Numbered from the stretch's first letter, positions 48,812-52,436 are shown. The stretch is 64,000 bases of DNA from Candidatus Tityobacter terrigena (GCA_003156715.1 PMHO01000038.1:85638-149637); one strand, 5' to 3'. The notes: generated from the sequence alone by a model not told the origin. A program made the numbers and translations.

Positions 48812-49660
48812 CTAGAAGCGAGCGCCTTCGAGGTTGGCGTGAGCGATCGTTTGCAGCTCGTCGCGCGTTACCGGACGGCAGTCGGACCGACGCCGGCGGC
48901 AATAGCGAACGCCGGTGAGATCGGCGCCACGCAGGGTGGCGCCCGCGAAGTTCGCGCATTGGATTTTCTCCAAGGACAGTCCGTCGCGGTCGTTTTCGGG
49001 ATTGCACACGATGGCGGAAGCTAGTGACGCGCCGTCAAGTCTGGCTGCGCGAAAATTGGCCCCTTGCAGCTCGGCGCGATCGAACCGTGCCTGGCTCGCG
49101 TCGGCGTGCTCGAGGTCGGCGCCGACGAGGGAGCCGTCGCTGAAGTTCGCGCGCAAGAGGTCGTCGCCACGCAGGCTGCTGCCGACGAATAACGCTCCGG
49201 CAAGGTCGAGACCGCGCAGGCTTACGTCGTGCAAGTCGCAGCCGGTGCAACTCGGGGCGGCGCCGTGCAGCGACTTCATCGCGTTGAGCAGAGCGTGGGT
49301 GAGGCGCACGCCGACGAGCTTCACGTTGGTGAGGTTGGCCCCCGCGAACGACGCGCCTTCGAGCCGAACGCCGGTGAAATTCGCATCGGTAAGATTCGCG
49401 CCGTCGAACTGAACGCTGCTCAGGTTCGCGCCGGTAAATCGAGCCTCCCGAAGATCGGCGTTGCGCAAGTCGGCGCCACGCAGGTTCGCGCCGACGACAT
49501 CGATGCCGTGAAGATCGCGGCCTTGCAGATTGAGTCCGGCGAGATCGCAGCCCACGCAATGCTCGAGCAGTTCGCGCGGCAGCTCGGCGGACCGAACGGA
49601 AAGAGGGACGATGGACAAGGCTACCAGCAGAGACAGGGCGAGCGTTCGATGTATTTTCAT
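48812..49660 (-). CDS. Secreted pentapeptide-repeat protein with CxGCDL motifs
   Basis: 282 residues. A signal peptide (LALSLLVALSIVPLSVRSAE) precedes a long pentapeptide-repeat helix of A(D/N)LxG units (LRGADLRNADLREARF; FTGANLSSVQFDGANLTDAN). The first block begins HCVGCDLAGLNL near residue 35; a second begins SCTGCDLHDVSL near 138; the C-terminus has a Cys-rich segment (YCRRRRSDC). The same CxGCDL caps occur in the M56 protein just upstream. It starts 71 bp after that gene with AAGGA before the ATG. It may be a diffusible partner or decoy for that protein. Function unknown. Confidence 0.88.
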   Translation of the reverse strand: MKIHRTLALSLLVALSIVPLSVRSAELPRELLEHCVGCDLAGLNLQGRDLHGIDVVGANLRGADLRNADLREARFTGANLSSVQFDGANLTDANFTGVRLEGASFAGANLTNVKLVGVRLTHALLNAMKSLHGAAPSCTGCDLHDVSLRGLDLAGALFVGSSLRGDDLLRANFSDGSLVGADLEHADASQARFDRAELQGANFRAARLDGASLASAIVCNPENDRDGLSLEKIQCANFAGATLRGADLTGVRYCRRRRSDCRPVTRDELQTIAHANLEGARF

Positions 49661-49731
49661 TACTCTTAATTCCTTAGGAAATCAACTCAATCGTAAAGGG
49701 GCGCGATGTGCCGCGGTGCCTCATCGTGCAG

Positions 49732-51972
49732 CTATTGGCTTAGCGAGGTGCCGGTCAGCGAGATGCCCGCGAGCCGGGCGCCGCTAAGCGACGCATTGTC
49801 GAAGTCGCAGCCGATCAGAACCGCGTTGCGCAAGTCGACGCCGTCGAGCTTGGCATGGCTGAGATCGACACCGGTCAGGCGAATTCCGTTGAGGTTCGCG
49901 CCGGTCAGATCCGCGTGTGAAAGGTCGACGCCGGTGAGCGCGATGCCGTGCCAATCGATTCCACGCAGGTTCATGCGCGAGAGGTCGCAACCGTTACAGG
50001 GCGTCGCGAGGATCGCTCGCAGAGCCGTGGCGTCGAACGAAGCGTCGCGGAACGACGTTCCGGTCAGTCGCACCCCCTCGAGATGCGCGCCCCGGAAAGT
50101 CGCCCCTTGGATGTCGGCGCCGGTCAGGCGCGCTCCGCTCAGGTTAGCGCCGTCGAGATTCGCGTGGCTCAAATCGACGCCGTTGAGTGTCGCGTCCGAT
50201 AAATTTGCTCCGCGCAGGTCGGCGTGATTCAAGTCGGCGCCGGACAGCGTGATGCCGTGCAGATCGAGGTTGCGCAAGTCGCGACCGGAGAGATCGCAGC
50301 CGACGCAGCGAGAGACGAGCTCGCGTGTGAGCGGATCGCCTTGCGCGATCTGCATCGCGGGAACCTTTACGTTCACTGCCGGAACGTGGACCTGGACGCC
50401 GGGAACTTGCAACGGCGACAGCTGGTCTAGGAGCGCGCGGACTTGCACGTTTACACCCGCGACTTGCACTTTCACATCCGGGACGTGCACGTTTACAGGC
50501 GGGACGTGCACGTTCGTAGCCGGGACGCGCACGTTCAAGGGCGGCACGCGAACCTTGGCGACCGCCGGATGGGAAGCGGACTCAGCGTCCGAATCGGCAC
50601 TGCCCTCAGCGTCGGCATCTGCATCGCTGTCCGCGGCCGAATTTGCGTCGCGTTGTGCGACTTGGACGGTGTGGCGTTGCTGGGTTTGGACGGCGTGGCG
50701 TTCCTGGGAATGGACGTTCACGCTGCCGTGCCACCGCACGACCGATTCGGTCTTCTCTGGTGCGGCGCCCTGGGGTCCGTGGGCGGACCGCGAGGGAGTC
50801 GCGGCGTGCTGGGTTCGCGGCTGAACCGCCGCGTGCGCGGGCTGTTGGGCAATCGCGGCGACTGCCTGCGACGCTGGCAATTGGAGCGGCGGAGCGGCGA
50901 CGGCGACCACCGTCGACGAAAGGAGCGCGAGGGCGAAGCCTGCGACGAGGCTCATCGGGTTCAAGCCCATTAGGCGTTCGCGGCCCGGAGCGAGCAGCGC
51001 TTCGATGCGCGTCGAGATCTGGCGTCGCGTGAAGAGTGCGCCCGGGGCGACGACTGCATAGGCAGGCATGCGCATCTGCCGCGCCATGCGTAGCAGCGAT
51101 TCGGCGTAACGCACGACGTCCGCGCTGCGCGCGACGACCGCGTCGTCGGCAGCCATCTCGCGCTCCAGTGCGATCCGGCGCCCGACGTACCACACGACCG
51201 GGTTGAACCAAAAGAGCCGCTCGATCGCACGCTGCACGAGATTCGTCCAGTCGTCGTAGTGGCGCAGGTGGGCATGTTCGTGGACGACGAGGTCCTCGAT
51301 CGCGCGCAAGCCGCTGTGCGTCGCGAGATCGACTGGTATGAGGATGACCGGGCGGCGGAATCCGATCGCCACGGGAACTTCGATTTCGTGCGAGAGACGA
51401 AGGTACGCCTCGCGCCCGGCGCTCGGGGCGCTCAGCCACGGAAGATCGTCCGCCAGCGAATCGTCGAGAGGAATTGAACGGCCCTTGACCCGTCGCAGGC
51501 CGTAGACGCTCAACGCTAGCATCGCAAGCCCGGCTAGCGCGCCGAGCGCGAATGCGGCGTCAAGCGCGAGGAAGACATCGTGTCCGAGCCCGGCAAAGCG
51601 CGGTGCGGCCGGCAGCGACGACGCGGCAGCCCACGACCTTGTTGCGAGACGATGGGCGGTCGCCGGGATCCTCCGAGCGGGCGCTACCCGCGCTGGCGAC
51701 GTTTCCGCGCCGAGGTTTTTTTGCGAGAGCGCGAACGTCTCGGCAGGCTGCGCCGGCTGTGCCTGCTGTGCCTGCTGCGCACGAGCGAGGCTAACGCCGG
51801 CACTTATGAAGGGCAGGCCCGCGACCGCGAGGAGCGTCATGAACCACAGCTTGTGGCGGCTTGCGGCGGTGAAGTGGCTGGATCGAACGAGCAACGCCGT
51901 TCCGGCCGCCAGAACGATGCTTCCGGCGATGCTGCTGGCGAGCGCTACGAGAATAACGGTTGCGAGGTTCAT
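49732..51972 (-). CDS. BlaR1-like M56 membrane peptidase fused to a pentapeptide-repeat domain
   Basis: 746 residues. The N-terminal third is a BlaR1/MecR1-type M56 protease: membrane helices near residues 5-28, 38-58, 110-135 and 320-340, the zinc motif DLVVHEHAHLRHYDDW near 229, and ALEREMAADDAVVARSADVV near 265 with the third ligand. After a Ser/Asp/Ala linker and a repeated VxVPxVNV segment (about 470-544) comes a pentapeptide-repeat domain (about 550-746) with two blocks headed CVGCDL and CNGCDL. Classical BlaR1 has a penicillin-binding sensor there. It overlaps blaI by 4 nt. By analogy it would sense a signal outside and inactivate BlaI. ATG 51972 was chosen for this overlap and the membrane start. 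Confidence 0.88.
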   Translation of the reverse strand: MNLATVILVALASSIAGSIVLAAGTALLVRSSHFTAASRHKLWFMTLLAVAGLPFISAGVSLARAQQAQQAQPAQPAETFALSQKNLGAETSPARVAPARRIPATAHRLATRSWAAASSLPAAPRFAGLGHDVFLALDAAFALGALAGLAMLALSVYGLRRVKGRSIPLDDSLADDLPWLSAPSAGREAYLRLSHEIEVPVAIGFRRPVILIPVDLATHSGLRAIEDLVVHEHAHLRHYDDWTNLVQRAIERLFWFNPVVWYVGRRIALEREMAADDAVVARSADVVRYAESLLRMARQMRMPAYAVVAPGALFTRRQISTRIEALLAPGRERLMGLNPMSLVAGFALALLSSTVVAVAAPPLQLPASQAVAAIAQQPAHAAVQPRTQHAATPSRSAHGPQGAAPEKTESVVRWHGSVNVHSQERHAVQTQQRHTVQVAQRDANSAADSDADADAEGSADSDAESASHPAVAKVRVPPLNVRVPATNVHVPPVNVHVPDVKVQVAGVNVQVRALLDQLSPLQVPGVQVHVPAVNVKVPAMQIAQGDPLTRELVSRCVGCDLSGRDLRNLDLHGITLSGADLNHADLRGANLSDATLNGVDLSHANLDGANLSGARLTGADIQGATFRGAHLEGVRLTGTSFRDASFDATALRAILATPCNGCDLSRMNLRGIDWHGIALTGVDLSHADLTGANLNGIRLTGVDLSHAKLDGVDLRNAVLIGCDFDNASLSGARLAGISLTGTSLSQ

Positions 51973-52364
51973 GGCTGCGCCGTCCTCTGCGCCCGCGCGA
52001 TGTCGAGTATCTCGCCGAGCCGCGCGAGCTCGTCGTCGTCGACGCGCTCCGACTCCAGCAGGTTCAAAACGAGCTCGCCGGGCGAGCCATTGAAAAAGCG
52101 TGAGACGACATGTTGCACGACCTGTTGCCGCGCCGCGGAGCGCTCGATCGCAGCGCGATAAATGAAGGCGCGGCCGCTTTCGCGGTGGCGTACGTAACCC
52201 TTGCGTTCGAGCACACGCAACACCGTTAGGACGGTGTTGTACGCCGGCTGGGGCTCGCCGAGCAGCTCGACGACCTCCGAGACGCTCGCTCCCCCGCAGC
52301 GCCAAAGGACGTCCATGAGCCGGTATTCAGCTTCCGTGAGGGTCGGCGATTTCTTGCGAGCCAC
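51969..52364 (-). CDS. blaI: BlaI/MecI/CopY family repressor
   Basis: 131 residues. The winged helix is clear (LTEAEYRLMDVLWRCGGASV; PAYNTVLTVLRVLERKGYVR HRESGR), and a helical dimerisation tail follows (ERSAARQQVVQHVVSRFF). Such repressors dimerise on operators and are cleaved when the partnering M56 protease is activated. It heads the three-gene operon with the M56-pentapeptide protein and the pentapeptide protein. Its GTG start is only 6 nt after a TAGCGT -10 box, so the transcript is probably leaderless. Whether it governs beta-lactam resistance cannot be seen here. Confidence 0.93.
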   Translation of the reverse strand: MARKKSPTLTEAEYRLMDVLWRCGGASVSEVVELLGEPQPAYNTVLTVLRVLERKGYVRHRESGRAFIYRAAIERSAARQQVVQHVVSRFFNGSPGELVLNLLESERVDDDELARLGEILDIARAQRTAQP

Positions 52365-52370
52365 GCTGCC

Positions 52371-52399
52371 ACGCTACCACGCAGCGGCAGCCTTGTCAA
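52371..52399 (-). promoter_or_regulatory. blaI operon promoter (TTGACA-17-TAGCGT)
   Basis: Consensus -35 TTGACA (52399-52394), 17-bp spacer and TAGCGT -10 (52376-52371). The GTG of blaI is 6 nt further. The same -10 hexamer occurs in P1 and P2. I see no clear BlaI-type palindrome over it, apart from weak symmetry. Confidence 0.72.
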
Positions 52400-52436
52400 C
52401 TATTTCAGTAGGTGTGCGCGACTCCCGCAGGCATCG

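Follow-up and report, generated by a model that had tools for sequence, protein, structure and literature searches.

An apparently undescribed variant of BlaR1-type signaling with a pentapeptide-repeat sensor in Candidatus Eremiobacterota

Candidatus Tityobacter terrigena, from a group of soil bacteria in the uncultured phylum Eremiobacterota, encodes a three-gene cassette that we judge to be genuine and conserved. It appears to be an undescribed variant of BlaR1-type signaling whose ligand is unidentified. Taken as a whole, and in the absence of any experiment, the cassette probably encodes a BlaR1-type one-protein receptor in which the penicillin-binding sensor has been replaced by a paired-cysteine pentapeptide beta-helix of the secreted type. 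The stretch of DNA analyzed, referred to as the window, comprises 64,000 nt (GCA_003156715.1 PMHO01000038.1:85638-149637) and carries the following genes:

51969-52364, minus strand: blaI, GTG start, 131 aa, a BlaI/MecI-type winged-helix repressor (Pfam PF03965, E=2.2e-32)
49732-51972, minus strand: M56-pentapeptide receptor gene, 746 aa (PF05569, E=2e-32; PF00805, E=4e-58)
48812-49660, minus strand: secreted pentapeptide gene, 282 aa (PF00805, E=4e-40), with a signal-peptide-like N terminus and a Cys-rich C-terminal module

The blaI stop codon and the receptor start codon share the sequence ATGA, a 4-nt overlap, and 71 bp separate the receptor stop from the secreted pentapeptide gene; this gene order and these domains are shown directly. 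The LytR-CpsA-Psr and amino-acid permease neighbors in the window were considered as cassette partners and rejected, as a neighbor count across loci gave no such recurrent cluster.

The receptor has an M56 domain (residues 6-326; PF05569 score of 112.9 bits against a cut-off of 31), and its C-terminal 200 residues include seven pentapeptide stretches. Its catalytic residues are conserved among homologues; in an alignment, E272 and D276 correspond to BlaR1 E242 and D246. The zinc site is as follows:

51268-51282, minus strand: zinc motif HEHAH, receptor residues 231-235, with HE..H conserved in homologues

An AlphaFold model of the receptor contains four transmembrane (TM) helices (residues 3-31, 36-71, 127-165, and 339-359), an M56 core lying between TM3 and TM4, and two beta-helix modules; at a mean pLDDT of 72 and a pTM of 0.49, its domains are usable but their arrangement is not. 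A Foldseek search with this model returned BlaR1 (8exr; 183 columns, rmsd 2.9) and pentapeptide proteins. Positive charges read from the sequence flank the predicted cytoplasmic ends (R30, R39, and K41; RRVKGR; RRQISTR). Because the protease sits between TM3 and TM4 of four helices, the charges follow this pattern, and the secreted paralogue has its own signal-peptide-like N terminus, the repeats most likely lie outside the cell, on the outer face of the membrane, a placement that remains a model prediction.

These results bear on most of what a first-pass annotation, made from the sequence alone, had claimed for the locus. The three-gene operon with its overlap and gap held (gene calls, Pfam), as did the intact zinc motif and an outer sensor made of pentapeptide repeats rather than a penicillin-binding domain (Pfam, with topology by model). 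Repeats located in the cytoplasm, which would have refuted that reading, are not borne out by the topology model or the charge pattern.

One rival explanation is that the receptor is a true sensor of beta-lactams or other cell wall antibiotics despite its different domain. BlaI/M56 ancestry speaks for it. However, a Pfam search found no penicillin-binding domain in the receptor, the outer part lacks a KTG/KSG box, and its single SxxK string (S705) lies inside the repeats; we consider this explanation very unlikely. The receptor also fell short of the blaR1 equivalog cut-off (66 versus 400 bits).

The outer part of the receptor is organized around paired cysteines, preceded by a spacer:

49735-50337, minus strand: sensor domain, receptor residues 546-746, two modules, each a short helix-CxGC-beta-helix (AlphaFold model)
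50296-50307, minus strand: first CxGC motif, C556/C559, invariant in 28/28 receptors
49987-49998, minus strand: second CxGC motif, C659/C662, in 27/28 receptors, the exception (L036) appearing truncated
50338-50520, minus strand: spacer between TM4 and sensor, repetitive xVxVPxx, about residues 485-545, low-confidence strands in the AlphaFold model

These four cysteines and C722, which is present in 26 of the 28 receptors, are the only five in the window receptor. Nearly all receptors have 102-103 residues from one CxGC to the other, and most of the secreted proteins have 102-105; xVxVPxx-like spacer repeats occur in about half of the receptor homologues. The M56-pentapeptide receptors of four loci (L103, L107, L114, and L117) are shorter: they have one module, CxxxC replaces CxGC, and the spacer contains VxVP repeats. 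The phylum also has M56 receptors that bear different outer domains, for example one in locus L041 that looks by eye like a DUF2807-type domain.

The secreted pentapeptide protein is a paralogue of the sensor, as shown by sequence: the two align without gaps over 189 residues at 43% identity, with both CxGC motifs in register. The C-terminal module of the secreted protein adds cysteines C219, C235, C254, and C261, and the protein ends in ...TIAHANLEGARF. In one genus (g43; L040, L042, and L043), the receptor carries this Cys-rich end as a fusion, and a separate secreted gene went undetected there; some other cassette loci also lack a detected secreted copy. In a maximum-likelihood tree, sensor and secreted labels have to switch twice, and the proteins of both kinds from the window's lineage cluster together with support of 96/99. 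The tree gives two groups and so does not support a single origin of the sensor domain, but it is itself fragile because the repeats align poorly.

The repeats might instead protect gyrase in the manner of Qnr or MfpA, a role that the first-pass annotation had allowed for and that is unsupported here. Qnr, MfpA, and AlbG do share the pentapeptide fold, but they are cytoplasmic gyrase binders, whereas the fold described here is exported and misses the Qnr and MfpA equivalog cut-offs by far (52 versus 240 and 59 versus 360 bits, respectively). Gyrase protection is thus all but excluded.

The window BlaI has a Penicillinase_R domain and a cleavage region (Pfam; alignment). In an alignment to MecI/BlaI structures, the cleavage region LVLN|F is kept as ELVLN|L, consistent with the cleavage of Staphylococcus aureus BlaI at Asn101-Phe102 by the protease of the known BlaR1 pathway (PMC9834060). 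Cleavage of the window BlaI by its partner M56 protease is an inference without biochemistry.

The promoter and putative operator of the cassette lie directly upstream of blaI:

52371-52399, minus strand: blaI promoter, -35 TTGACA (52394-52399), 17-bp spacer, -10-like TAGCGT (52371-52376)
52399-52412, minus strand: putative BlaI operator CCTACTGAAATAGT, overlapping the -35 box

Transcription is predicted to start at or near the GTG, and the blaI mRNA may conceivably be leaderless, as inferred from sequence alone. The same promoter arrangement is found upstream of blaI in three other loci (L007, L033, and L035). Across the family, a dyad near ACTAANNNNTTAGT, whose sequence is the family's own, lies upstream of blaI and overlaps TTGACA; in many loci another operator copy sits close to the -10, about 45 bp further on. 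The operators of close relatives (CTTAATGAAATAGT and CTTAATTAAATAGT) occupy the same place as the window operator and match it. The window operator has the lowest position weight matrix score of the set (10.7, against 14-24 for the other blaI genes used), and it is the genome's only zero-mismatch match to CNTANTNNAATAGTTGACA. Separately, locus L035 carries a SNF2 helicase gene (L035:505-4737) with internal LAGLIDADG and Hint-associated matches, likely an intein.

The operator recurs at a second class of genes. The pattern YTWANNNAWTAGTTGACA gave 24 matches in 60 genomes (one palindromic site being counted on both strands) versus 1 for a reversed control, and five matches away from blaI precede a gene for a protein of about 700 residues. 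In a structure model (pTM 0.82), this protein has a CBM9-like domain at its N terminus along with about 20 long strands; Foldseek returned outer-membrane receptors and a CBM9-like protein, and the Pfam matches to CBM9_1 and DUF5916 are weak, below cut-off. It is thus predicted by model to be a CBM9-like, DUF5916-like outer-membrane beta-barrel. The barrel gene directly follows the cassette in 12 sampled loci and is divergent in one. A barrel gene that sits inside the operon lacks a separate operator, whereas one located elsewhere usually comes with one or two. A single operator region is common to barrel gene and cassette in G005, a 95% complete genome in which one BlaI gene was found; in cassette-less genomes (seven genomes without any receptor match) an operator was found at 0/13 barrel promoters. 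Barrel genes with an operator also occur in three genomes (G016, G047, and G053) whose M56 proteins gave no pentapeptide match; the barrel is thus an output not only of this cassette but of other BlaI/M56 systems as well. The papers searched describe no role for the DUF5916-like barrel in this phylum.

Seven loci (L057:3288-4298 and six others) encode an exported-looking protein of about 300 aa without a Pfam family, which follows the barrel gene in several cassette loci. Operators without a clear gene behind them, only short frames or a contig end, were seen in L182, L183, L184, and L186.

In the window genome, barrel genes with operators are present on contigs C22 and C61, neither of which is the window contig. 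Their controlling repressor is undecided because this genome also encodes an orphan BlaI with a canonical operator and no M56 neighbor on contig C37 (L170; G000:C37:88483-88821), similar in sequence to BlaI from locus L041; this orphan, not the window BlaI, could be what controls them. Another canonical operator, ACTAAGTATTTAGT, lies about 30 bp before a gene whose exported product resembles a zinc metalloprotease (L172; G000:C2:10621). Its frame runs off the locus and ends in HEVGH, and it is a possible further regulon member.

We surveyed 60 genomes of relatives and ran a pattern scan over 84,980 species, each represented by one genome. Receptors with the CxGC sensor were read in 28 genomes, including the window's, spanning 26 genera in two families of Ca. 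Eremiobacterota, and more CxGC-type receptors occur among named contigs. Most receptor genera also have blaI and a second pentapeptide gene; recurring in 26 sampled genera, the gene set is not a chance arrangement. The first-pass annotation had proposed checking whether both genes always accompany the receptor; they mostly do, the exceptions being the fused genus and the few loci without a copy. Kept matches in Acidobacteria, Zixibacteria, and elsewhere covered only the M56 part. One contig labeled Gloeobacterales (L109) encodes an M56-pentapeptide protein without CxGC, and a binning error is possible. The pattern scan relied on short patterns, with 80 loci kept, and so absence outside Ca. Eremiobacterota is unproven. 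Searches of viral contigs gave no relative; plasmid records gave no place covering 80% of the receptor, and the matches listed there are separate pentapeptide proteins.

The cassette resembles the BlaR1/BlaI and MecR1/MecI systems of Staphylococcus and Bacillus in its BlaI-type repressor and BlaI cleavage region, its M56 domain between TM3 and TM4 with HExxH, E, and D, its outer C-terminal sensor, its operator at its own promoter, and an effector related in fold to the sensor. The BlaR1 sensor domain is itself related to the enzymes that BlaR1 induces; by analogy, the sensor described here would stand in the same relation to the secreted protein under its control. The cassette differs in having a pentapeptide beta-helix as sensor, in a third gene that encodes a pentapeptide protein rather than a beta-lactamase or PBP2a, in its operator sequence, and in an output that comprises the secreted pentapeptide protein and, in relatives, the outer-membrane barrel. 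The literature searched contains no description of an M56-pentapeptide receptor, so that an already characterized architecture, which would also have refuted the first-pass annotation, is not borne out. Its claim of a new type of sensor system is supported in a narrower form, as a variant of BlaR1-type signaling, because M56 receptors with other sensors occur in these genomes. It noted neither the operator nor the cysteine pairs, and it had overlooked both the sensor's paralogy to the secreted protein and the regulon's outer-membrane barrel.

Two published systems offer further comparison. PetR/PetP, a BlaI/BlaR1 pair of cyanobacteria that responds to copper (PMC7896320), likewise joins a BlaI-family regulator to a BlaR1-family protease without a beta-lactam link; it differs in controlling plastocyanin/cytochrome c6, and the commentary cited mentions no pentapeptide sensor. 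The pentapeptide protein YjbI of Caulobacter crescentus, which is secreted and has paired cysteines, governs outer-membrane barrels and disappears under stress from zinc, copper, sucrose, or acid (PMC12864828). As the secreted protein described here appears to be, it is an exported beta-helix with cysteine pairs, tied to barrel expression and to its own resynthesis. Unlike the cassette, it works via the two-component systems UzcSR and ChvGI, with no protease fusion, and it has a charged C-terminal tail, which by inspection the window protein lacks. The window protein does have a signal-like N terminus and cysteine pairs, but it has more cysteines than YjbI's four, and in the absence of a direct alignment the resemblance is only tentative.

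Under the explanation we favor, a BlaR1-type receptor with a replaced sensor, BlaI at rest would sit on the operator over its own promoter, for which there are no binding data. A change in the cell envelope, felt by the outer pentapeptide domain, would be relayed across the four membrane helices and activate the M56 protease; cleavage of BlaI in its C-terminal dimerization part would then release the operon. Derepression would yield additional receptor and repressor together with the sensor's secreted paralogue, with the CBM9-like barrel in the same regulon across the family. The secreted copy would then shut the response off, either by taking the same ligand as the sensor or by mutual binding, as inferred from the paralogy of the two proteins and their common cysteine frame. 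The action of the protease on BlaI, the direction of the response, the feedback, and the trigger (metal/thiol stress or loss of envelope order) are all inferred; the YjbI precedent leads us, by analogy, to expect that the input is envelope stress or metal/thiol stress and that the secreted protein provides feedback (PMC12864828).

A sharper version of this explanation fixes the trigger: the CxGC pairs of both proteins would be binding sites for a thiophilic metal (copper, zinc) or indicators of disulfide state, with the secreted protein acting as a sink. Consistent with this possibility, the sensor CxGC pairs are invariant and of fixed spacing, the barrel proteins also have an invariant CxxC (C293/C296, 28/28), PetR/PetP responds to copper, and zinc and copper remove YjbI. 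However, P-type ATPase and thioredoxin-type genes did not turn up beside the cassettes in a simple motif search, the CxGC pairs could be structural disulfides, and the barrel CxxC occurs in the cassette-less genome G004 as well (alignment row). The conserved cysteine frame may indeed be only structural; the cysteines of YjbI are dispensable for its zinc-induced turnover (PMC12864828).

Homeostatic self-sensing is also possible. Here the receptor would gauge the amount or state of the secreted protein in the envelope through homotypic beta-helix contact, and the loss of that protein would lead to resynthesis, as for YjbI via two-component systems. The in-register paralogy, the fused form in one genus, the lineage-wise grouping of sensor with secreted protein, and the logic of the YjbI circuit (PMC12864828) support this reading; against it, there is no direct evidence of contact between sensor and secreted protein, and the secreted gene is undetected at some loci.

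The bolder reading, offered only as a possibility, is that matching cysteine-capped beta-helices allow a membrane protease to monitor a secreted protein paralogous to its own sensor. If so, the cell would read the state of its outer membrane, or a thiol/metal signal, and then rebuild the paralogue and the barrel. More broadly, and apart from this bolder reading, the cassette would show the BlaR1 protease platform, so far associated chiefly with antibiotics, to be a modular receptor with an exchangeable sensor, and secreted pentapeptide proteins and the DUF5916-like barrel would gain a regulated, testable function within a predicted regulon for an uncultured phylum.
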